Below, piece after piece: positions 1,117 through 22,893 of a stretch of DNA of 64,000 bases. This stretch comes from Saxibacter everestensis (GTDB taxonomy: Bacteria; Actinomycetota; Actinomycetes; Actinomycetales; Brevibacteriaceae): contig NZ_CP090958.1 of the NCBI RefSeq assembly GCF_025787225.1, forward strand, positions 558,001-622,000. Reading direction: 5' to 3'. The notes beneath the pieces were generated by a model. It saw nothing but the letters and a program-made list of their open reading frames with translations. It ran no database searches and had not been told where the DNA came from. Numbering within the stretch: the first letter of the stretch is position 1; each line of letters begins with the position of its first letter. Both the position numbers and the translations under genes were made by a program.

Positions 1117-2415
1117 ATGCCCACGCAGCCGATCAGCGTCAGCTCCCACCTCGAGCGCGTGCTTTCGCTCGTGCGGCCGTTGCCGCCATCGAGTGTCCCG
1201 CTCGCGGAGGCCCTGGGTTGCCGTCTCGCATCCGACCTGCGCGCCGATATCAATCTGCCGCTGTTCAACAATTCCCAGATGGACGGCTACGCGGTTCGGA
1301 TCGAGGATCTGGCAGCCGTCGGCCAAGCCGTCCGGTTGCAGATTGCCGGCGACCTTCCGGCTGGTTCCGCCGAACCGGTGGCCGTTCCGTCCGGTGGCGC
1401 GGTGCGGATCATGACCGGGGCGCCAGTGCCGGATTCAGCCAGCGCGGTCGTTCCGGTGGAGTGGACGGATCTGCCGGCCGGGTCGGCGCCGCTGGCCGGA
1501 AGCGTCGAGGTGCGCGTTCCGGACGGCGCCAGCCTGGTGGATGGCCTGTTCATCCGCCGGATCGGCGAGGACGTGAGTGCGGGTGACGTGGTCATACCGG
1601 CAGGGACGACGCTCGGGCCGAGGCATATCGGACTGCTGGCGGCGCTTGGCCGGTCAGTGGTGGAAGTATGCCCGATGCCGAGGGTTGCGGTGATAGCCAC
1701 CGGCGACGAGCTGGTCGAGCCGGGCATGCCGCTGCAGCCGGGGCAGATCTATGAGTCCAACGGGCACATGCTCGTGTCCGCGCTGCGCGAGATGGGAGTA
1801 CCGGCCCACCGGGTCGCCCTGGTCGCCGACACCGCGGACGACGTGCGCGAGGCACTCGAGGGTCAACTGTCCCAGGCCGATCTGCTGATCACCACCGGAG
1901 GGGTGTCTGCCGGCGCCTACGACACGGTCAAGGAAGTGCTGTCCGGCTCGCCGTCCATGCGGTTCGGCAAGGTCGCGATGCAGCCCGGCGGCCCGCAGGG
2001 CAGCGGCACGATGCAGGCGCCGGACGGACGGGAGGTGCCCGTGCTGACGTTGCCAGGCAACCCGGTATCGAGCTATGTCTCGTTCGAGGCTTTCGTCCGG
2101 CCCGCGGTGAACCAGATGCTGGGCCGGAGCGAGCTGTTCCGGCCGGTGGTGCGGGCCAGGGTTGTCTCGGGCTTTGCCTCGGTGGCCGGCAAGGAGCAAC
2201 TGGTTCGAGCAGCGCTGCGTTCGGGGCCCGAGGGGTTCACAGTGGAAAGAATCGGCGGACATGGTTCGCATCTGCTGGCAAATCTCGCGAGCGGGAACAC
2301 GCTGCTGCGAGTGCCGGCCGGCCTGGCGGAAGTTTCCGACGGCGCGGAGCTGGAGTGCCTCGTGCTCGACCAGGATTTCTTCGCAGCCCTACACAGTTCG
2401 ACGGAGGTTTCGTAA
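1117..2415 (+). CDS. glp: Gephyrin-like molybdopterin molybdotransferase (Glp/MoeA1 type)
   Basis: This 432-residue protein has MoeA architecture: N-terminal domain with the NSQMDGYAVR motif (about 50-59), then a MogA-like fold with TGDEL and TTGGVSAGAYD, and a C-terminal beta domain. MoeA enzymes insert molybdate into adenylylated molybdopterin. In Corynebacteriales the copy beside galU, rimJ and a long membrane protein is Glp, a gephyrin-like protein that binds FtsZ and the membrane receptor GlpR. Both the receptor gene (4157) and Moco genes are nearby, so it could be catalytic, divisomal or both. TAA is immediately followed by the moaC ATG, implying translational coupling. Confidence 0.9.
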   Translation: MPTQPISVSSHLERVLSLVRPLPPSSVPLAEALGCRLASDLRADINLPLFNNSQMDGYAVRIEDLAAVGQAVRLQIAGDLPAGSAEPVAVPSGGAVRIMTGAPVPDSASAVVPVEWTDLPAGSAPLAGSVEVRVPDGASLVDGLFIRRIGEDVSAGDVVIPAGTTLGPRHIGLLAALGRSVVEVCPMPRVAVIATGDELVEPGMPLQPGQIYESNGHMLVSALREMGVPAHRVALVADTADDVREALEGQLSQADLLITTGGVSAGAYDTVKEVLSGSPSMRFGKVAMQPGGPQGSGTMQAPDGREVPVLTLPGNPVSSYVSFEAFVRPAVNQMLGRSELFRPVVRARVVSGFASVAGKEQLVRAALRSGPEGFTVERIGGHGSHLLANLASGNTLLRVPAGLAEVSDGAELECLVLDQDFFAALHSSTEVS

Positions 2416-2901
2416 ATGTCCGGGTCGGAAAAGAAACTGACACACGTCGATGCGCGGGGCGCGGCGCAGATGGTCGATGTTTCAGCAAAACAGGTCACGG
2501 TGCGTCAGGCAGTGGCGACGGGACTGGTCCGTACTACCCCAGAGGTTGTCGCGTTGCTCCGTGGCGAGGGCGTGCCCAAAGGTGACGCGCTCGCCGTCGC
2601 CCGGCTGGCCGGCATCCAGGGCGTGAAACGGACCCCGGATCTGATCCCGCTGGCACACCCGATCGCGGTGCATGGCGTGGAGATGGACGTCGAGCTCGTG
2701 GACGCTGGAGTAGCGTTGCGCGCCACAGTTCGCACCGCGGATCGCACCGGTGTTGAGATGGAAGCCCTGACCGCTGTCGCGGTAGCCGGCCTGGCCATGA
2801 TCGACATGATCAAAGCGGTCGACCGGGGCGCGAGCATCGTCAACGTGCAGGTCGAATCGAAGTCAGGCGGACGATCGGGAGAGTGGAACCGTGAACAGTG
2901 A
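2416..2901 (+). CDS. moaC: Cyclic pyranopterin monophosphate synthase MoaC
   Basis: MoaC converts the MoaA product to cyclic pyranopterin monophosphate, the second half of step one of molybdenum cofactor synthesis. The 161-residue protein has THVDARGAAQMVDVSAK at the N terminus, the LIPLAHPI block (about 76-83) and GVEMEALTAV (about 113-122), all family hallmarks including the histidine and glutamate of the active site. The start abuts the upstream stop and has GGAGG before it. Its last 11 bases overlap the next gene. Confidence 0.96.
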   Translation: MSGSEKKLTHVDARGAAQMVDVSAKQVTVRQAVATGLVRTTPEVVALLRGEGVPKGDALAVARLAGIQGVKRTPDLIPLAHPIAVHGVEMDVELVDAGVALRATVRTADRTGVEMEALTAVAVAGLAMIDMIKAVDRGASIVNVQVESKSGGRSGEWNREQ

Positions 2902-3451
2902 AGAGAGCCGGCGGACCGCACTTGTCATCGTGGCCTCGACCCGGGCGGCAAACGAAGTTTACGACGACGTGTCCGGACCGGAGTTGGTCAAGGGACTGAG
3001 CAGCTGGGGCTTCGCGGTGACCGGCCCGCAGGTGGTTGCGGACGGCGACCCGGTGGCGCACGCGTTGAAATCGGCGGCCGGCCGGTACGACGTCATCCTG
3101 ACCACGGGAGGCACCGGTATCACCCCGACAGATACGACGCCGGAGGTCACCGAACCACTGCTGGATCGGCAACTGCCCGGCATCCAGGAACTGCTTCGCG
3201 CCGAAGGCGTGCGCAAGGGGATACCCACGGCCGTGCTGTCCCGCGGGCTCGCGGGCGTGGCAAAGGGGTCGCTGGTTATTAATCTGCCCGGCTCCCGGGG
3301 GGCTGTTCGAGACGCGCTCGCGGTGCTAGCCGATGTTATCGAGCACGCCGTCGCGCAGATTGCCGGATCGGATCATGAATCGCGGGCGCCGGGACGGCCG
3401 GAATTCCGGATGCCGACCGTCCAACCGGATGCCCAGCACGGAGAGGCATGA
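2891..3451 (+). CDS. moaB: Molybdopterin adenylyltransferase, MoaB/Mog family
   Basis: MoaB/Mog proteins adenylylate molybdopterin before metal insertion. The 186-residue product has the MogA fold with TTGGTGITPTDTTPE (about 76-90) and NLPGSRGAV (about 134-142). A GTG start lies inside the moaC end (GTGAACAGTGA), the coupled arrangement seen along this operon. The last 30 residues are polar and probably disordered. With glp and moaC it gives three Moco functions in a row. Confidence 0.93.
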   Translation: MNSEESRRTALVIVASTRAANEVYDDVSGPELVKGLSSWGFAVTGPQVVADGDPVAHALKSAAGRYDVILTTGGTGITPTDTTPEVTEPLLDRQLPGIQELLRAEGVRKGIPTAVLSRGLAGVAKGSLVINLPGSRGAVRDALAVLADVIEHAVAQIAGSDHESRAPGRPEFRMPTVQPDAQHGEA

Positions 3452-4068
3452 ACTACTGGCCGGTGACGCTGCGCGAGGACACCTTGGTGCTTCGCCCGTT
3501 GTCGATGCGGGACGCCAAGGCGTTCAAAGAGGTGCGGCAGCGCAATCGACGCTGGCTGGCCCGATGGGAGGCATCAAGCCCGGAGCTGCGCGGCCAGCTT
3601 CCGACATTTCGCCAGATGGTCCGTCATCTGAGCTCGCAGGCACGGTCTGGGTCGGCCTTGCCGTTTGCCATCGAGTTCGAGGGTGAGTTCGCCGGGCAAC
3701 TGACGGTCAGCGGAATCACCTGGGGGTCGCTGCGTTCGGTGTCCATCGGTTATTGGATCGACGAGCGCTGGGCGGGACGTGGGTTGGTGCCTACATCGGT
3801 CGCCCTGGCAACCGACTTCTGTTTCTTCGAGCTGAACTTGCACCGAGCTGAGATCAATATTCGCCCGGAGAACAAGGCCAGCCTTCGAGTGGTGGAGAAG
3901 CTTGGATTCCGTGACGAGGGTGTGCGCGAACAATACCTGCACATCGACGGCGAATGGCGTGATCACAGAAGTTTCGCGCTCGTGGTGGACGACATTCCCG
4001 GTGGCTTGCTGAACTACTGGAAGCACGTGCGGGCAGGAGAACAGGGACTGGCCGGTCCGGGGGCTTGA
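3448..4068 (+). CDS. rimJ: GNAT acetyltransferase, RimJ family
   Basis: This 206-residue GNAT protein resembles RimJ, an N-terminal acetyltransferase for ribosomal protein S5 in E. coli; the mycobacterial equivalent is Rv0995. It has the acetyl-CoA strand and loop YWIDERWAGRGLVPTSVAL and the family tail ENKASLRVVEKLGFRDEGV. The start overlaps the moaB stop (ATGA). Its actinobacterial substrate is unknown, so the name reflects homology and synteny only. Confidence 0.9.
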   Translation: MNYWPVTLREDTLVLRPLSMRDAKAFKEVRQRNRRWLARWEASSPELRGQLPTFRQMVRHLSSQARSGSALPFAIEFEGEFAGQLTVSGITWGSLRSVSIGYWIDERWAGRGLVPTSVALATDFCFFELNLHRAEINIRPENKASLRVVEKLGFRDEGVREQYLHIDGEWRDHRSFALVVDDIPGGLLNYWKHVRAGEQGLAGPGA

Positions 4069-17624: not shown

Positions 17625-17977
17625 CCGAGATCAAGACGCCCGACTCGATTGTCATGGAGCTGACGGACTTGAAGAACCGGGTGGCGCAGGGACCGAAGCA
17701 CCTCCGTGAGGCGGAGGCGGAGTTCCTTGAGGTTGAGCGGCAGTACCAGCGGGAGTACGCGCTGGCGTACAAGCGTGCGGACGGCCCGGTGGAGGACCGG
17801 AAGCAGCAAGCGATCGTGGACACGGACACTTTCCGGGAAGCGAAGGACGTCGCGCTGATCACCCTGAATTACGTGAAGGGTCTGTCCCGGTCGTATGAGT
17901 CGCAGCAGAGCAATTTGCAGACTCAGGCACGGCTGGTGGAGATCACTTACCGGATGGCTGGGGTGGGTGAGCGATGA
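17621..17977 (+). CDS. Recombination-module helical protein
   Basis: The 118-residue, mostly helical protein (LKNRVAQGPKHLREAEAEFL, VALITLNYVKGLSRSYES) is likely a coiled-coil dimer. It lies between the annealing and HNH-like genes with 4-bp overlaps and may be an accessory factor of the recombination cassette. No family recognised. Confidence 0.65.
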   Translation: MTEIKTPDSIVMELTDLKNRVAQGPKHLREAEAEFLEVERQYQREYALAYKRADGPVEDRKQQAIVDTDTFREAKDVALITLNYVKGLSRSYESQQSNLQTQARLVEITYRMAGVGER

Positions 17978-18321
17978 GCCGGGTACCTGCCGCGATGTGG
18001 AAGCGGGTCAAGGAACGCGACGGGGCCGCCTACTGCTGTGACGCCAGCGAGGAGCTGTGGGTGCCTCAGCACCGTCAGGGCCGAGGGATGGGCGGCTGCA
18101 AGACCGCGCACACCTACCCGAACATCATCGTGTTCTGCTCGTTCTGCAACGGCCTAGCCGAGTCCAACCCGGCGTGGGCAGCGCATTACCGCGACATGGG
18201 CTGGAAAGTGCCCCGGAACAGTATGGACACCCCGGACATGATCCCCGTTACCGACCGGGACCGCCGTCGTTGGTGGTTGTTGTCGGATGGTACCCGGGTT
18301 GCCGTGGACGGTGCAGCATGA
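17974..18321 (+). CDS. HNH-like phage protein
   Basis: The 115-residue protein has EHR-type HNH features: CC-x-ASEELWVPQHRQGRGMGG and NIIVFCSFCNGLAESNP. The first catalytic His is probably in QHRQGRG, and the motif is less canonical than in the other HNH genes here. It may be a nuclease or a degenerate zinc-binding protein; it overlaps the methyltransferase start. Confidence 0.65.
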   Translation: MSRVPAAMWKRVKERDGAAYCCDASEELWVPQHRQGRGMGGCKTAHTYPNIIVFCSFCNGLAESNPAWAAHYRDMGWKVPRNSMDTPDMIPVTDRDRRRWWLLSDGTRVAVDGAA

Positions 18322-20231
18322 GAATCGGCAGCACATGCTCTGGTTACGGCGGGCTCGACTTGGCTGTTGAGGAAGTGTTCGCCGCGAAGACGGCGTGGCA
18401 CGTTGAGTATGAGGCTGGGCCGTCGAAGATCCTCGCGCATCACTGGTCTGACGTTCCGAACCACGGTGATCTCACCATCCTCGACTGGTCGACGGTGGAG
18501 CCGATCGACATTATTACGGCGGGCTATCCGTGCCAGCCGTTCTCTCTCGCTGGGAAGCGGAAAGGACAAGACGATGACCGGCACCTTTGGCCGTACCTCA
18601 CCGAAGCGATTCGCGTTCTACGACCCCGATACGTCGTGCTGGAAAATGTCCGAGGTCACCTCTCTGTGGGGTTCGGAACCGTTCTCGGCGACTTGGCCCG
18701 GCTCGGGTATGACGCGCAATGGATACTCCTTCGAGCTGCCGACATCGGCGCCCCCCACGCCCGCGCCCGGGTCTTCGTCCTTGCTACGGACACCCGAGGC
18801 GAAGCTTGGATCAAGCGGACCGGATTACGCAAGAGTGAACCGGCCGGGTTCGGGGGGGAGCGACTTGGCGACGGCGGCCTCGCTGCTACCGACGCCGCGG
18901 GCGACGCGGGGCGGATCTGCAACCGAGACGGTGGCGCTGCTGCCGACTCCGAGCGTGGCGGACGCTCTCGGTGGTCACGAGCGGAGGGGCGGCAGCCGGT
19001 CGAACGAGCTACTGCTGAACGGGGTAGCGAAAACCCTGTTTCCTACGCCCACGACTCAGCCGGACACGGGAAACGGGCACGCCCGGAACCTCGGGAACGA
19101 AGCGAAACTCCTCCCCACGCCGCAAGCTCACGACGCCCAGAAGGGCAAGACGGCGGAGCAGGTCGCAGCAATGCGGGCGAGAGGGCACGGAGTAGCGAAT
19201 TTGAACGAACTCGCGGAGAACGAGTTGATAAAGCTCCTACCAACACCGAGAGCGCTGGACTCAACCGGCGTGCGGGGTCGGACACCCAACAGGAGCGAGG
19301 AGGCGAACGCCCGGGCTGGAGCGACGTTAACGGACGTGACGGAACACGACCTGCTGTCGACTGGGGGCCGTATCGTCCAGCCGTCGAACCCACAGGACGA
19401 GGCGGAGGACTAGATGCCGTTACCACCGAAAGCCGACCCGGAGAGGTACTGCCTGATCTGCGGCAGCCGACTGGAACGGAAGCGATACGGAAAGCGGTTA
19501 GAGGATCGGACTCGGTTCCTAGCCCGGCGGACGTGCTCCCAGAGCTGCGGGAACACGAGACCGGAAGTTACAAAGGACGCGAATCATTGGCGTGCCCGCA
19601 AACACCGGAAAGCGGTGTGCGAGATGTGCGGAACCCAGGAAATCCTTCACGTTCATCACGTGGACCGGAATCCGGCGAACAACGACCCGAGCAACCTCAG
19701 GACTCTGTGCGCGAGCTGCCACTTGAAGCTCCATTGGATGGAGGATCGGGAGAAGCGGATGCGGAGCCGCCCGCGCCGACCGGACCAGCCGTGCAGGATA
19801 TGCGGCAAATTGTTTCACCCTCGCCACAGCCGCATCCAAACCTGCTCACCGACGTGCAAGGCGGCACTACTCAGTATTCAGAACACCGGGAACGCGAGGA
19901 AACAAACTGGGGACCCTATGCCGCCGCGATAACCCGCTGGGAAGCCGTTCTTGAGAGACCTGCCCCTAGCCCTACCGAGCCAACAGGACGCAACGGTGCT
20001 CATCGTTTATCGCCCAAGTTTTGCGAGTGGATGATGGGCCTCGCCGACGGCTGGGTGACAGACCCCGCTATTTGGAATGACGACCGTGAAGTCATCGAGA
20101 AGATCCGGACAGGGTTTATGCCCGCAACCGCTCGGAATCCCCAGTTGAAAGCGCTCGGTAACGGTGTTGTCCCGCAGCAGGCTGTCGCGGCACTGAGGCA
20201 CCTCCTGAACATGGCGCAGGTGGTGGCATGA
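18318..20231 (+). CDS. Phage C5-cytosine DNA methyltransferase with long overprinted insert
   Basis: The 637-residue frame has motif I (GSTCSGYGGLDLA, 4-16), motif IV (GYPCQPFS, catalytic C72), motif VI (LEN, 108-110), motif VIII (HARARVFVL, about 147-155), then a long charged low-complexity stretch, and C-terminal WGPYAAAITRWE, RLSPKFCEWMMGL and motif X (LKALGNGVVPQQA, about 610-622). It should methylate cytosine to protect phage DNA or mark it. Residues 86-365 are overprinted by the gene at 18574 and 366-539 by the HNH gene. WGPY occurs at 349 and again at 531, so residues 348-529 look inserted. ATG overlaps the upstream stop. Confidence 0.88.
   Translation: MRIGSTCSGYGGLDLAVEEVFAAKTAWHVEYEAGPSKILAHHWSDVPNHGDLTILDWSTVEPIDIITAGYPCQPFSLAGKRKGQDDDRHLWPYLTEAIRVLRPRYVVLENVRGHLSVGFGTVLGDLARLGYDAQWILLRAADIGAPHARARVFVLATDTRGEAWIKRTGLRKSEPAGFGGERLGDGGLAATDAAGDAGRICNRDGGAAADSERGGRSRWSRAEGRQPVERATAERGSENPVSYAHDSAGHGKRARPEPRERSETPPHAASSRRPEGQDGGAGRSNAGERARSSEFERTRGERVDKAPTNTESAGLNRRAGSDTQQERGGERPGWSDVNGRDGTRPAVDWGPYRPAVEPTGRGGGLDAVTTESRPGEVLPDLRQPTGTEAIRKAVRGSDSVPSPADVLPELREHETGSYKGRESLACPQTPESGVRDVRNPGNPSRSSRGPESGEQRPEQPQDSVRELPLEAPLDGGSGEADAEPPAPTGPAVQDMRQIVSPSPQPHPNLLTDVQGGTTQYSEHREREETNWGPYAAAITRWEAVLERPAPSPTEPTGRNGAHRLSPKFCEWMMGLADGWVTDPAIWNDDREVIEKIRTGFMPATARNPQLKALGNGVVPQQAVAALRHLLNMAQVVA
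18574..19413 (+). CDS. Overprinted LLPTP-repeat protein inside the methyltransferase gene
   Basis: Read in a different frame from the methyltransferase, this 279-residue protein has AAAGGA 7 bp before its ATG. The start (FAFYDPDTSCWKM, FSATWPGSGMTRNGYSFELP) matches a conserved actinophage sequence I recognise. Six LLPTP-type repeats follow: LLRTP 70, LLPTP 104, LLPTP 122, LFPTP 155, LLPTP 179, LLPTP 221. Each is followed by small and acidic residues. Function is unknown. It ends TAG, and the HNH ATG follows with no gap. Confidence 0.75.
   Translation: MTGTFGRTSPKRFAFYDPDTSCWKMSEVTSLWGSEPFSATWPGSGMTRNGYSFELPTSAPPTPAPGSSSLLRTPEAKLGSSGPDYARVNRPGSGGSDLATAASLLPTPRATRGGSATETVALLPTPSVADALGGHERRGGSRSNELLLNGVAKTLFPTPTTQPDTGNGHARNLGNEAKLLPTPQAHDAQKGKTAEQVAAMRARGHGVANLNELAENELIKLLPTPRALDSTGVRGRTPNRSEEANARAGATLTDVTEHDLLSTGGRIVQPSNPQDEAED
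19359..19904 (+). repeat. Putative 546-nt frame-preserving insertion carrying the HNH gene
   Basis: The methyltransferase motif DWGPY starts at 19359 and its near copy NWGPY at 19905; only the second continues into the conserved AITRWE segment. The DNA at both points is alike (TGGGGGCCGTAT and TGGGGACCCTAT). The spacing is 182 codons exactly and includes almost all of the HNH gene. I infer an insertion with short target duplication. Confidence 0.55.
19414..19932 (+). CDS. HNH endonuclease overprinted on the methyltransferase gene
   Basis: The 172-residue protein has an N-terminal zinc finger (CLICG with CSQSC), a canonical HNH site (CEMCG, HVHHVDRNPANND, LRTLCASCHLKLH) and a C-terminal zinc finger (CRICGKLF with CSPTC). 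GGCGGAGG 6 bp before the ATG supports translation. It uses a different frame from the methyltransferase and follows the LLPTP gene directly. Its last residues (TGDPMPPR) may derive from that gene's original end. A homing role is inferred from location. Confidence 0.85.
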   Translation: MPLPPKADPERYCLICGSRLERKRYGKRLEDRTRFLARRTCSQSCGNTRPEVTKDANHWRARKHRKAVCEMCGTQEILHVHHVDRNPANNDPSNLRTLCASCHLKLHWMEDREKRMRSRPRRPDQPCRICGKLFHPRHSRIQTCSPTCKAALLSIQNTGNARKQTGDPMPPR

Positions 20232-20422
20232 CGTGGTGTGTGGAGTGGACTAGGCGGGTGAAGCTCGCGGAGTCGATAGCGGGCTGGTGGCCGCCGGGTG
20301 AGGCCACGGAGGCGGCGGTGCACGCGGCACTGGATGGGGCGTCGATGGCGGACCTCGAACGATACAGAAAGGAGGCACAAGATGGCGCGAATCAGAACAA
20401 TAAAACCGAGTTTCTTCACTAG
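20228..20422 (+). CDS. Small hypothetical phage protein (64 aa)
   Basis: The product is helical (TRRVKLAESIAGWWPPGEATEAAV). Its 3' part contains AGAAAGGAGGC, the ribosome-binding site of the next, overlapping gene, so it may mainly couple translation. Function unknown. Confidence 0.55.
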   Translation: MTWCVEWTRRVKLAESIAGWWPPGEATEAAVHAALDGASMADLERYRKEAQDGANQNNKTEFLH

Positions 20423-21131
20423 TCTGACCGTCTCGACTTTGACGTTGCATCAGCGGCTTACTTTTATCGGTCTTTGGACACATTCCGATGATGAGGGCCG
20501 GAGCATTTACGACCCTCGGTTGATTCGGGCGGCATTATGGCCGCTCGATGATCGGTCAGTTGGAGATGTCGAATCGGACATTATCGCGCTCACTGATGCG
20601 TCACTGATTACTCACTACACCGTCAGTGAACGCTCATTCCTACAGGTGAATGGATGGGCTGAGCACCAGAAAATCAACCGGCCGAAGAAGTCGGACTACC
20701 CACCCCCTCCCAAGGGTGGACCAACACCCCTCAAACCCCCTCTGACCTGCAGTGATGAGCCGTCGGTGAACGATCACGGATTGCTCACTGACGAAACACT
20801 GCGGGAAGGGAAGGGAAAGGAAGGGAAAGGAAAGGAAGGGAGTTCGCGCGCGAGCGCACTCCCAAGCATCTTCGAAGTGACCGAGGAAATGGTGGTGTGG
20901 GCTCAGACCAACGCACCGGCTGTGACAAACCTCGAATTCGAAACTGAGAAATTCAAGGATCATCACGCCGCTAAGGGGTCGAAGTTCAAGGACTGGACGC
21001 GTGCGTGGCAAACCTGGATGCGCAACGCCCAGCAGTACGCCGAGGAACGGCAGCCCAAGCTGCGGGCCGTGGCGGGGCTCTCCCCTGAAGAACTGCATCA
21101 GCGCAACATCAACTCGTACCTGTACCAATGA
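20382..21131 (+). CDS. Replisome organiser / replication initiation protein
   Basis: The 249-residue protein starts with MARIRTIKPSFFTSLTVSTL and LTFIGLWTHSDDEGR, the conserved winged-helix start of actinophage replication initiators. A middle linker includes the Lys/Glu/Gly run REGKGKEGKGKEG. The C-terminal part (about 155-230) with FKDHHAAKGSKFKDW resembles a DnaD/DnaT-type domain that recruits helicase. ATG 20382 has a strong ribosome-binding site. It overlaps the ATPase gene. Confidence 0.85.
   Translation: MARIRTIKPSFFTSLTVSTLTLHQRLTFIGLWTHSDDEGRSIYDPRLIRAALWPLDDRSVGDVESDIIALTDASLITHYTVSERSFLQVNGWAEHQKINRPKKSDYPPPPKGGPTPLKPPLTCSDEPSVNDHGLLTDETLREGKGKEGKGKEGSSRASALPSIFEVTEEMVVWAQTNAPAVTNLEFETEKFKDHHAAKGSKFKDWTRAWQTWMRNAQQYAEERQPKLRAVAGLSPEELHQRNINSYLYQ
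20808..20841 (+). repeat. Polypurine GGGAAAGGAA tract in the replication gene
   Basis: About 34 consecutive purines built from GGGAAAGGAA-like units encode the Lys/Glu/Gly linker. Such a tract within a phage initiator gene can mark a replication origin or an easily unwound region. Confidence 0.8.
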
Positions 21132-22357
21132 TCGGGACGGAGGCGGAGCACTCGGTGATTGGGGCGTGCGTGGCTGATAAGAATTCGATCCGGTTCGCGG
21201 TGGAGGTCATCACGCCTGGGGACTTCTCTCACCCGTCGCTCGGTCAGGTGTTCAACATCATCGCCTCGCTACGAGGCATGGGGTCACCGGTCGATGTGGT
21301 CACCGTGGGCCAGGAGGTTAATAAGCGGAAGATTCCGGGTGTCACGGGTAACGACATCGGTCTGTGGCTACAGTCACCGGAGAATTCTGGGTCGGTGACG
21401 CATCACGCAAACATCGTTCGTGATGATTCGATCCGCCGGCAGAGCGTGACAGTTGCGACCCGAGCGGTACAGCGCCTCACTGACCCGGCAGATGAGCCCA
21501 GCGTGGCGATCGCAGATGTGGTGAGGGAGCTGCGGGAGATCAGTGCGGCTGGTGCCGGGAGCACGTTGAGGGCGAAGGTACTGAACGAAGTGCTGGAAGG
21601 CTCAGACGACTACGACTGGGTCGTTCCTGGCCTGCTGGAGCGCCGTGACCGTGTGGTGGTCACTGCGGCCGAGGGTGCCGGGAAGACCACGTTCATCCGC
21701 CAAATGGCCGTGTGTCCGGCATCGGGTATCCACCCGACGGAGTTTTTCGAGATGGACCCTATCCGGGTGCTGGTGGTGGACGCGGAGAACACGGAGACGC
21801 AATGGCGGCGGCAAGTCAGGCGGCTAGTCGTGCAGGGCCGGAATCTTGGTTCAGCTGATCCCGGGTCGAACGTGTGGTTGGCGTGCTCACCGCGGATGAA
21901 TGTTACGAAGGACTCGGACCTCGGGGCGATTCACCGGCTGCTCGATGAGTCTCAGGCCGACATGGTTTGCGTGGGGCCGCTTTACAAGCTCTCGGGCGGT
22001 GATGTGAATACCGAGGAGGGCATCGGCCCAGTCTTGGATGCGTTGGACACGATCCGAGAGCGTGGGGTCGCTCTCGTGGTTGAAGCCCATGCGGGTCATC
22101 AGAAGAACGCTGCAGGATACCGGGATCTCCGTCCGCGTGGGTCGTCGGCGCTGATGGGATGGCCGGAGTTCGGGTTTGGTCTGGCGCGGAACTCCGGTGA
22201 CCCGGAGCGGTTGGTGGATTTAGCGCGGTGGCGTGGTGACCGTGACGAGCGGGCGTGGCCTGAGCAGTTCAGCCGGGGCGGGACATGGCCATGGATGAAC
22301 CCGTTGTTGCTGGATCGTCCAGTGACGACTGATTTCTGGGCGGAGGTCGATCGGTGA
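21128..22357 (+). CDS. DnaB-like / RecA-fold replicative ATPase
   Basis: The first about 100 residues resemble the DnaB helicase N-terminal domain (AEHSVIGACVADKNSI, DFSHPSLGQVFNIIA). A RecA-type ATPase follows: Walker A AAEGAGKTT (180-188) and Walker B VLVVDAENTE. It probably acts as replicative helicase or helicase loader with the preceding initiator. Length (409) is near DnaB but the C-terminal part is closer to AAA_25/RepA-type proteins. Confidence 0.85.
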   Translation: MIGTEAEHSVIGACVADKNSIRFAVEVITPGDFSHPSLGQVFNIIASLRGMGSPVDVVTVGQEVNKRKIPGVTGNDIGLWLQSPENSGSVTHHANIVRDDSIRRQSVTVATRAVQRLTDPADEPSVAIADVVRELREISAAGAGSTLRAKVLNEVLEGSDDYDWVVPGLLERRDRVVVTAAEGAGKTTFIRQMAVCPASGIHPTEFFEMDPIRVLVVDAENTETQWRRQVRRLVVQGRNLGSADPGSNVWLACSPRMNVTKDSDLGAIHRLLDESQADMVCVGPLYKLSGGDVNTEEGIGPVLDALDTIRERGVALVVEAHAGHQKNAAGYRDLRPRGSSALMGWPEFGFGLARNSGDPERLVDLARWRGDRDERAWPEQFSRGGTWPWMNPLLLDRPVTTDFWAEVDR

Positions 22358-22893
22358 GGTCAAGTATCGACGATTTGACGTACTACTACCGGCTACCGGA
22401 ACCGGAGCGACCGGAAGGCCGGATGTTCCGGGAGGCGCTGGCTGATTGGGTGGCCGAGAACAAGCGTCCTCGTCGGCGTTGGCCGGTCCGTAATCGGGAG
22501 CCGCGGACGCCTATCCCGTCGTTGAAGCGCGCTCTGATCCATGCGCGGGACGGGCAGTGGTGCCTACTGTGCGGGAATCGTGTCCGGTTCGCCGTGGATC
22601 ACATCATTCCGCGGTCGGCGTTCCGGAAGGAAGACCTCGTCGCCGCTGACCGGTCGGACAACCTACGCAGCGTGTGCTTCGACTGCAACCAGAAGCGGTC
22701 GAACTACGAGACGGTCGGGTCCAAGCGGCTCGGTGTGGCTGTCGCGTGTTGGTACTGCCAGAATCCGCATCCGGATGAAACCGACTCGGATGTTTACGCG
22801 GAGTACTGCGAGGCGGTCCCGGAGGACGTGTTGCCGGTCTTCTGCGGCCGGTGCGGGGTGTCGTGGGTGCCCTCAGTGACGTGGGTGCTGTGA
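22354..22893 (+). CDS. HNH endonuclease
   Basis: The 179-residue protein has a central HNH domain: [17 protein letters not shown], then [15 protein letters not shown], with zinc cysteines and the DH catalytic pair. Extra Cys pairs (CWYC, CGRCG) form a C-terminal ribbon. GTG start overlapping the ATPase stop. In the replication block it could be a homing or junction-processing enzyme. Confidence 0.85.

Follow-up and report, generated by a model that had tools for sequence, protein, structure and literature searches.

The 64,000-nucleotide (nt) stretch of the Saxibacter everestensis genome analysed here (the window; NZ_CP090958.1, positions 558,001 to 622,000) carries, at 18318-20231, a prophage gene for a C5-cytosine DNA methyltransferase, which we call alpha. 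Two further open reading frames (ORFs) lie in its +1 frame, one for an LPTP-repeat protein (beta) and one for an HNH nuclease. We consider it likely that the locus encodes an overlapping, probably two-polypeptide methyltransferase into which an HNH gene, probably of the homing type, has been inserted. In such an enzyme, alpha would hold all catalytic motifs in two lobes separated by a long, probably disordered linker, while beta would be translated from its own start inside alpha, would bind alpha and would most likely supply DNA target recognition, with its shuffled LPTP modules as candidates for the variable recognition parts. The HNH gene would have been inserted in beta's frame between beta and the C-lobe, with alpha's frame kept open, and its product, presumably translated as well, would be a mobile element with methyltransferase genes as its home.

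The original prediction, made from the sequence alone, had proposed that three genes are overprinted here, and all three ORFs are indeed found where it had placed them, with Pfam support for the methyltransferase and the HNH nuclease. The features are listed below, with the basis of each in brackets; pLDDT is the predicted local distance difference test score, SD stands for Shine-Dalgarno, and numbers beginning with L denote loci of the comparison.

18318..20231, + strand: alpha, C5-cytosine methyltransferase ORF, 637 amino acids (Pfam, M.HhaI fold match)
18318..18797, + strand: catalytic N-lobe of alpha, residues 1-160, with motifs I, IV (GYPCQPFS), VI (ENV) and VIII (HARAR) (Pfam PF00145, pLDDT)
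18562..18566, + strand: AAGGA, likely ribosome-binding site of beta, inside alpha codons (sequence reading; SD counts in relatives)
18574..19413, + strand: beta, LPTP-repeat protein, 279 amino acids, +1 frame of alpha (ORF, profile matches, phrog_1008 at 5.4e-27)
18601..18777, + strand: T-block of beta (W..S..FSATWPGSGMTRNG..ELP), over alpha motifs VI and VIII in +1 (profile matches)
18781..19248, + strand: six L[LF][PR]TP modules in beta's frame, starting at 18781, 18883, 18937, 19036, 19108 and 19234
18828..19892, + strand: alpha residues 171-525, open frame, unconserved, low-confidence and probably disordered (pLDDT, openness tests)
19362..19409, + strand: left partial copy of the C-lobe start in alpha's frame, WGPYRPAV..EPTGRGG (read against the right copy, which starts at 19908)
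19404..19408, + strand: GGAGG, likely ribosome-binding site of the HNH gene (sequence; likewise upstream of the HNH in L020 and L246)
19414..19932, + strand: HNH nuclease, 172 amino acids, +1 frame of alpha (Pfam; same layout in L020 and L246)
19893..20228, + strand: C-lobe of alpha, residues 526-637, with motif IX-like RLSPKFCEWMMGLADGW and motif X, QLKALGNGVVP (alignment, pLDDT)

The sequences named I, IV, VI and VIII in alpha are those that we take to be these motifs. As had been proposed, each nested gene has its own likely ribosome-binding site, with spacings, read from the sequence, of 7 nt from AAGGA to the beta ATG at 18574 and of 5 nt from GGAGG to the HNH ATG. Beta's frame is open upstream as far as 18322, and its TAG stop abuts the HNH ATG (19414) in the same frame, the HNH being nested in alpha's +1 frame directly behind beta. 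The six repeats that had been announced as LLPTP are present as four LLPTP, one LLRTP and one LFPTP.

The conserved overlap of alpha and beta

A tblastn search with beta matched 156 phage records. Three profiles, for the alpha N-lobe, the T-block and the C-lobe, were run on loci fetched by beta, by the C-lobe and from relatives' genomes, as well as on four phage records. In all 108 pairs of N-lobe and T-block (103 non-redundant), the T-block lay over the N-lobe in +1, the loci being kin and the counts therefore not independent. The reduction from 108 to 103 pairs reflects the removal of near-copies (L010 with two pairs, L081, L090 and L138). L009, which holds two copies, was counted twice; the first copy, which borrowed its C-lobe from the gene that follows, falls in class X. 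L016, L023, L027, L049 and L097-L120 were left out as duplicates or as superseded by the longer L121-L138. Loci fetched by the T-block alone (80 loci, the best 80 of 126) gave 82 pairs, all in +1 over the N-lobe, in a set that shares some contigs with the 103 pairs and is not independent of them. Ten further records were picked from hit lists, among them phages of Bacteroides, Vibrio, Synechococcus, Microcystis, Microbacterium, Streptomyces and Mycobacterium and plasmids of Bacteroides and Megaera; all ten were in +1, at GC contents of 0.36-0.66, two of them with weak T-block matches (E 0.002-0.003). No free-standing T-block was found in these locus sets. The alpha/beta overlap is neither local nor a matter of chance. 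A megablast of the whole region against phages gave no match, and a tblastn of a proteobacterial beta against plasmids, made for enterobacterial copies resembling EcoHK31I, returned three records, none of them enterobacterial.

The 103 pairs differ in where the C-lobe lies. In 51 of them (type B, median GC 0.48) it is in beta's frame and alpha stops soon after motif VIII, so that beta consists of T-block, modules and motifs IX/X fused in frame. In 42 (type A, median GC 0.65, lowest 0.588) it is in alpha's frame within a single ORF, as in the window; the architectures of the other 10 pairs are mixed or interrupted. Motif X in alpha together with an IX-like end on beta was seen in seven displayed loci, six proteobacterial and one planctomycete (L172, L185, L187, L165, L183, L210 and L198), and L135r and L026 have the C-lobe in alpha's frame with an intervening stop.

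Further arrangements were observed beside these. The enzyme runs over three successive +1 frames (N-lobe; T-block and modules; C-lobe) in L040, L053, L062, L070, L074 and L032, the second and third ORFs overlapping in the first five and being 211 nt apart in L032. LPTP modules come first in beta's and then in alpha's frame in L009, L011, L014 (ShiLan gp70), L025, L075 and L121, and from these sequences the modules appear able to move between frames. On a Megaera plasmid of GC 0.37 (L229), motifs IX and X are in alpha with beta nested; the architecture of the window is not confined to high GC.

Beta is under selection. For comparison, alpha was recoded 200 times with synonymous codons, its amino acids unchanged. 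The T-block of the window scored 92.8 bits against a null mean of 20.3 and maximum of 45.0, and in each of the 101 pairs tested the real score exceeded that of every recoding, with a profile built from 14 sequences that belong to the scored loci; L032 and L126, which have a stop in the recoded stretch, were omitted from the 103. The highest null of any pair, 67.8 bits, came from L005, with a real score of 113.2. Since the best recoding never reached the real score, the possibility that the T-block is a mere by-product of alpha's motifs was rejected. Differences between homologous LPTP modules were concentrated on the third position of beta's codons, amounting at positions 1, 2 and 3 to 0.181, 0.133 and 0.520 in type A and to 0.255, 0.163 and 0.585 in type B.

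Start signals accompany the overlap. Of 91 pairs, 61 had an SD match of at least 5 next to a start in beta's frame (8.0 expected) and 84 had one of at least 4 (21.2 expected), 12 of the 103 pairs having been left out where the profile match or the codons did not span the tested stretch. In 57 of the 103, the T-block opens right at a start codon preceded by AGG or GGG. Such starts at the edge of the T-block typically lie over the ENVRG codons of alpha (motif VI), and those of the window and some other loci come earlier, over GKRKGQDDD.

The original prediction had also held that both frames encode selected protein and that even motifs VI and VIII of the enzyme overlap the second frame. The latter is borne out by the T-block in +1 over these motifs. 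The former stands for the N-lobe overlap, where motifs VI and VIII share nucleotides with the FSETWPxSGMTRNG block; downstream, the methyltransferase frame is open but unconserved, and conserved protein is carried there by the LPTP and HNH frames. A check for loci with stops in the LPTP frame and the methyltransferase kept, made on the T-block in the 103 plus 82 pairs (partly overlapping sets), turned up a single T-block interrupted by a stop, that of L137, whose alpha is broken too. L039 has alpha and C pieces with no T-block, in a locus that is itself damaged by a stop and a deletion.

Division of the enzyme between alpha and beta

Alpha is a C5-cytosine DNA methyltransferase (PF00145) with motifs I, IV, VI and VIII and a C-lobe with motif X. 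The Pfam DNA_methylase family matches residues 1-159 (1.3e-33), the PCQ, ENV and GNG motifs are intact, and the C-terminus is IX/X-like, with the IX-like stretch at residues 563-579, which bears out the claim that the motifs are complete at both ends. AlphaFold modelled two confident lobes, residues 1-165, except for a loop at 76-86, and about 526-637, with a pLDDT of about 90 or more over most of the N-lobe (low within 71-90 and 111-120) and mostly of 71-96 in the C-lobe (a single ten-residue block at 60), whereas nearly all of residues 171-525 fell below 50. The model (range 1-637) matched the M.HhaI fold over both lobes, with Z 21.4, a root-mean-square deviation of 3.6 and 235 of 327 residues aligned. 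As modelled, alpha is a two-lobed catalytic fold with no confident recognition domain. Between motifs IX and X (20070-20132, alpha 585-605) the C-lobe of the window has about 17 extra residues, around WNDDREVIEKIRTGFMPA, which are absent in the other 13 sequences of the C-lobe alignment.

The middle of alpha shows no recognisable conserved sequence and no confident structure, though its frame is kept open. The 42 type A loci have no alpha-frame stop between T-block and C-lobe at 949 risk sites, against about 87 expected, a zero that is partly by construction, as the class is defined by one ORF; a risk site is a place where a preceding codon ending in T gives an alpha-frame stop, and the expectation comes from the use of T at third codon positions elsewhere. 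By a fairer count, 42 of 43 high-GC pairs with the C-lobe in alpha's frame are open, at a mean chance of 0.20 each (from recoding of the 42). Nine high-GC type B loci, in which nothing needs openness, have 46 alpha-frame stops against 38 expected. In the window, the nested frame was recoded in 5000 trials with the codon usage of eight large window ORFs, and alpha's frame stayed open in 0.02% of recodings of the LPTP part and 0.28% of those of the HNH part. The GC content at third codon positions over 18798-19931 is 0.74-0.76 in the LPTP/HNH frame versus 0.53-0.56 in the methyltransferase frame, with a smaller contrast in the N-lobe overlap (0.77 versus 0.68).

Beta begins with WKM..SLWGSEPFSATWPGSGMTRNGYSFELP (the T-block), followed by its six modules. 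It has no Pfam or NCBIfam match, and a PDB sequence search with it gave nothing up to E 1; phrog_1008 matches beta with its positions 62-176 and the C-lobe of alpha with its positions 221-321. The LPTP modules form 24 families, each present in at least four loci and changing in order between loci, and five of the six window modules belong to families of this kind. Multispecific methyltransferases have arrays of several exchangeable recognition modules between motifs VIII and IX; the LPTP modules are shared between loci and shuffled, with no link to known recognition domains seen. Short stretches near the ends of several betas, NQMDLFS in L012 and GQLNLLDAI near the C-terminus in L003 and L004, are ones that we take to resemble sliding-clamp-binding motifs.

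The genes of M.EcoHK31I, a known C5-methyltransferase with the recognition sequence YGGCCR, overlap out of frame. Its large chain carries motifs I-VIII plus X and its small chain IX alone, while in M.AquI, the other two-polypeptide enzyme considered here, I-VIII are on one chain and IX-X on the other, with the variable region split between them, according to the accessible part of PMC3404938. Beta is read here as a probable second subunit because, in relatives, it is fused to IX-X or to an IX-like motif, as in these divisions; a recognition role is suggested by its position and fusion partners, alpha showing no ordered recognition domain. Neither the probable second-subunit nature of beta nor the separate insertion of the HNH gene was part of the original prediction.

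Alpha of the window resembles the large chain of M.EcoHK31I in having I-VIII and X, and the seven displayed relatives with an IX-like end on beta share its full division. The window differs in that IX is in alpha rather than on the small polypeptide only, in the LPTP array of beta and in the nested HNH. Type B relatives are divided as M.AquI is; the window itself is not of that type, and a long +1 overlap with a conserved T-block is not described for M.AquI in the accessible part of PMC3404938. Both halves are named DNA methyltransferase in several phage records, as overlapping or adjoining gene pairs. The split phage enzymes linked to phrog_1008 (Andrew gp43/gp44, PrincessTrina gp81/gp82 and Samy SAMYPH_49/50) are annotated as such pairs; being of type B, they carry the C-lobe in beta's frame, in contrast to the window.

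The nested HNH nuclease and its setting

The window HNH matches the Pfam families HNH_3 (3.2e-6) and HNH (7.8e-6). Two viral contigs have the same layout: in L020 (57% identity to the window HNH) the stop of beta is at 3138, the HNH starts at 3139 and the alpha ORF spans 2070-3785, and in L246 the HNH is 67% identical; alpha's frame is open through the HNH in both. Among the 103 pairs, only the window and L020 have an HNH match inside the gene. Both belong to the 42 non-redundant type A loci, of which the other 40 show no such match at E 0.01, and the 80 genome loci that the T-block brought in yielded none either. Occupied and empty versions of one site, a trait of homing endonucleases, are thus both observed.

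The HNH gene seems, from its sequence context, to be a separate insertion. At its left junction in the window the beginning of the C-lobe recurs in shortened form, and EPTGRGGG ahead of the gene resembles EPTGRNGAH behind it, though not at a defined border. The gene ends in TAA (19930-19932) followed by C. An Rfam search of 18000-20500 gave no family match up to E 1, and so no described group I or group II intron family.

Nesting is seen in most of the HNH relatives too. A scan with six HNHs gave 122 loci, and of the best 80 of these, 72 have a C5-methyltransferase N-lobe no more than 2.5 kb upstream. In 49 of the 80, the HNH match falls within the ORF of the N-lobe itself, which is one frame back; in the rest, the N-lobe is two frames back (19), one frame back but ending before the match (2), in the HNH's own frame (2) or not found (8). 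After identical matches were dropped (80 to 70), the matched HNH stretch, on which the test was made rather than on the full HNH ORF, lay inside an ORF one frame back in 65 of 70 cases, with 0.6 expected by recoding; the other frame was open over the match in 5 of 70 (2.2 expected). In L258, three successive frames are in use, for the N-lobe, for beta through motif X, and for the HNH.

In the accessible part of PMC11855218, Arsenault, Gosselin and Gogarten describe an HNH that lies out of frame in another phage methylase, ShiLan gp65, whose own frame stays open; the element ends in TAAC and has similar counterparts elsewhere ('ShiLan domain'). The window likewise has an HNH in another frame of a phage methylase whose own frame is open, and shares with the published case the TAA followed by C and the patchy distribution. 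As far as that part of the paper goes, the ShiLan element lies in the third frame with no detectable ribosome-binding site, whereas the window HNH lies in the second (+1) frame with GGAGG ahead of its ATG, and the ShiLan host gene is another methylase for which no nested beta is mentioned, the homologue of the window gene in ShiLan being gp70. No HNH match was found in gp70 (L014). The ShiLan-domain HNH itself can be made out in gp65's third frame (L014, 510-839) and weakly matches the window HNH (27%, E 0.006). The window HNH resembles the ShiLan domain in kind, but sits in a different methyltransferase and a different frame and has a ribosome-binding site that can be recognised.

The locus lies in a prophage stretch, within a 4.05-Mb single-contig genome, among genes for recombination and replication, with portal and tape measure genes farther along the window. 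Its neighbours are as follows.

16263: RecE/YqaJ exonuclease
17974-18321: small HNH-like gene, phrog_740 (6.4e-17), directly upstream of the methyltransferase gene and ending 4 nt inside it
from about 20382: replication initiation protein
21128: DnaB-like helicase
22354-22893: another HNH gene

With the nested gene at 19414-19932, the prophage module holds three HNH genes in total (the others at 17974-18321 and 22354-22893).

Alternative explanations and wider meaning

Several observations weigh against a two-polypeptide enzyme with a homing-type insertion. In addition to the kinship of the loci and the built-in part of the zero stop count, four pairs (L032, L126, L205 and L225) have a stop in the alpha N-lobe with the T-block intact, and the low pLDDT of alpha's middle may in part reflect a shallow alignment (24 sequences). 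The model of beta, built from the relative L095, is poor (pLDDT 61), and its fold search gave no PDB match at E 0.001 or better; methyltransferases among the top rows at E 0.6-0.9 were not taken as evidence. Since the window's alpha has motif IX itself, beta is not obviously essential there. Five of the 70 HNH relatives lack the nesting, and in phiPsa397 and an Escherichia phage more distant HNH relatives are annotated as separate genes. Finally, the recognition domain of M.EcoHK31I is predicted on its large subunit (PMC3404938, accessible part), which speaks against beta as the sole carrier of recognition and slightly lowered our confidence.

Of the competing explanations, the one that survives best, although we regard it as unlikely, is that the HNH is the cognate restriction nuclease, alpha, beta and HNH forming a compact restriction-modification unit whose nuclease and methylase are hard to separate. 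The HNH subfamily does sit mostly in an ORF one frame back, with a C5-methyltransferase domain upstream in 72 of 80 loci, and GGAGG precedes the HNH start in the window, L020 and L246. The gene is, however, dispensable and patchy, given its presence in two of the 103 pairs and none of the 80 genome loci, and the partial duplication at its junction in the window fits an insertion. Related HNHs are moreover nested in quite different methyltransferases, in phage phiKX1 and Staphylococcus phage CUB-EPI_14. An in-frame fusion of the Staphylococcus phage HNH to its methyltransferase was considered and rejected, as this HNH is in +1.

We give less credence to beta as an unrelated small protein, such as a regulator or a host-interaction protein, that uses the methyltransferase gene as a vehicle while alpha works alone. 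A window alpha with all motifs, including IX and X, and a beta with a poor model and no matched fold would suit it, but the T-block and modules run on in frame into motifs IX-X of the methyltransferase in 51 of 103 pairs, an IX-like motif ends beta in the seven displayed loci, and an N-lobe was overlapped in all 82 pairs fetched by the T-block. Slightly more doubtful still is a three-in-one specificity cassette, in which the alpha linker would be mere packaging for the other two proteins, beta would hold interchangeable recognition modules shuffled from phage to phage in the second frame, and the HNH, of a family at home out of frame in C5-methyltransferase genes, would act with the enzyme as a compact restriction-modification or site-marking system.

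Two explanations strike us as very improbable, and equally so. Programmed frameshifting, rather than internal starts, might yield one chain, and in loci of type X or with LPTP modules in mixed frames the blocks could be so joined; T-block and motif VIII of alpha nevertheless occupy the same nucleotides, and a single chain cannot contain both complete, while well-placed SD sequences and start codons are over-represented. A decaying methyltransferase, inactivated by the HNH insertion, would account for the partial copy of the C-lobe start on the left flank and for the unconserved linker, but not for an alpha frame that is open through the insertion in the window (0.28% by chance) and likewise in L020 and L246, nor for the intact PCQ, ENV and GNG. 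Chance open frames of a high-GC genome are scarcely credible, for although type A occurs in the main set only at high GC (42 loci), the +1 overlap persists at 36-45% GC, L229 (0.37) combines a nested beta with an alpha that holds IX and X, and the recoding and SD tests contradict chance ORFs.

Each component of the overlapping methyltransferase resembles a known kind, and it is the combination, its breadth and the HNH nesting that are new. Among the literature titles and beginnings of abstracts listed, mostly from outside subscription papers and preprints, we found no account of the overlapping beta family or its LPTP arrays, nor of an HNH family that nests almost regularly in C5-methyltransferase genes.

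If a two-polypeptide enzyme is the correct reading, many C5-methyltransferases of phages and prophages, annotated as one gene with an odd middle or as a methylase next to a hypothetical protein, would be overlapping two-part enzymes. The second part can go unannotated, as in Synechococcus and Vibrio phage records and on a Bacteroides plasmid (whose gene table is incomplete), and expression of a recoded annotated gene alone would destroy its partner and could give false negatives. The overlap is also unusually deep for a natural one: two conserved proteins share their nucleotides both in cyanobacterial phages and in loci of Actinomycetota, Proteobacteria and Bacteroidota. The nesting of the HNH family (65 of 70) in turn suggests a general route by which nuclease genes may settle in a host gene without breaking it.

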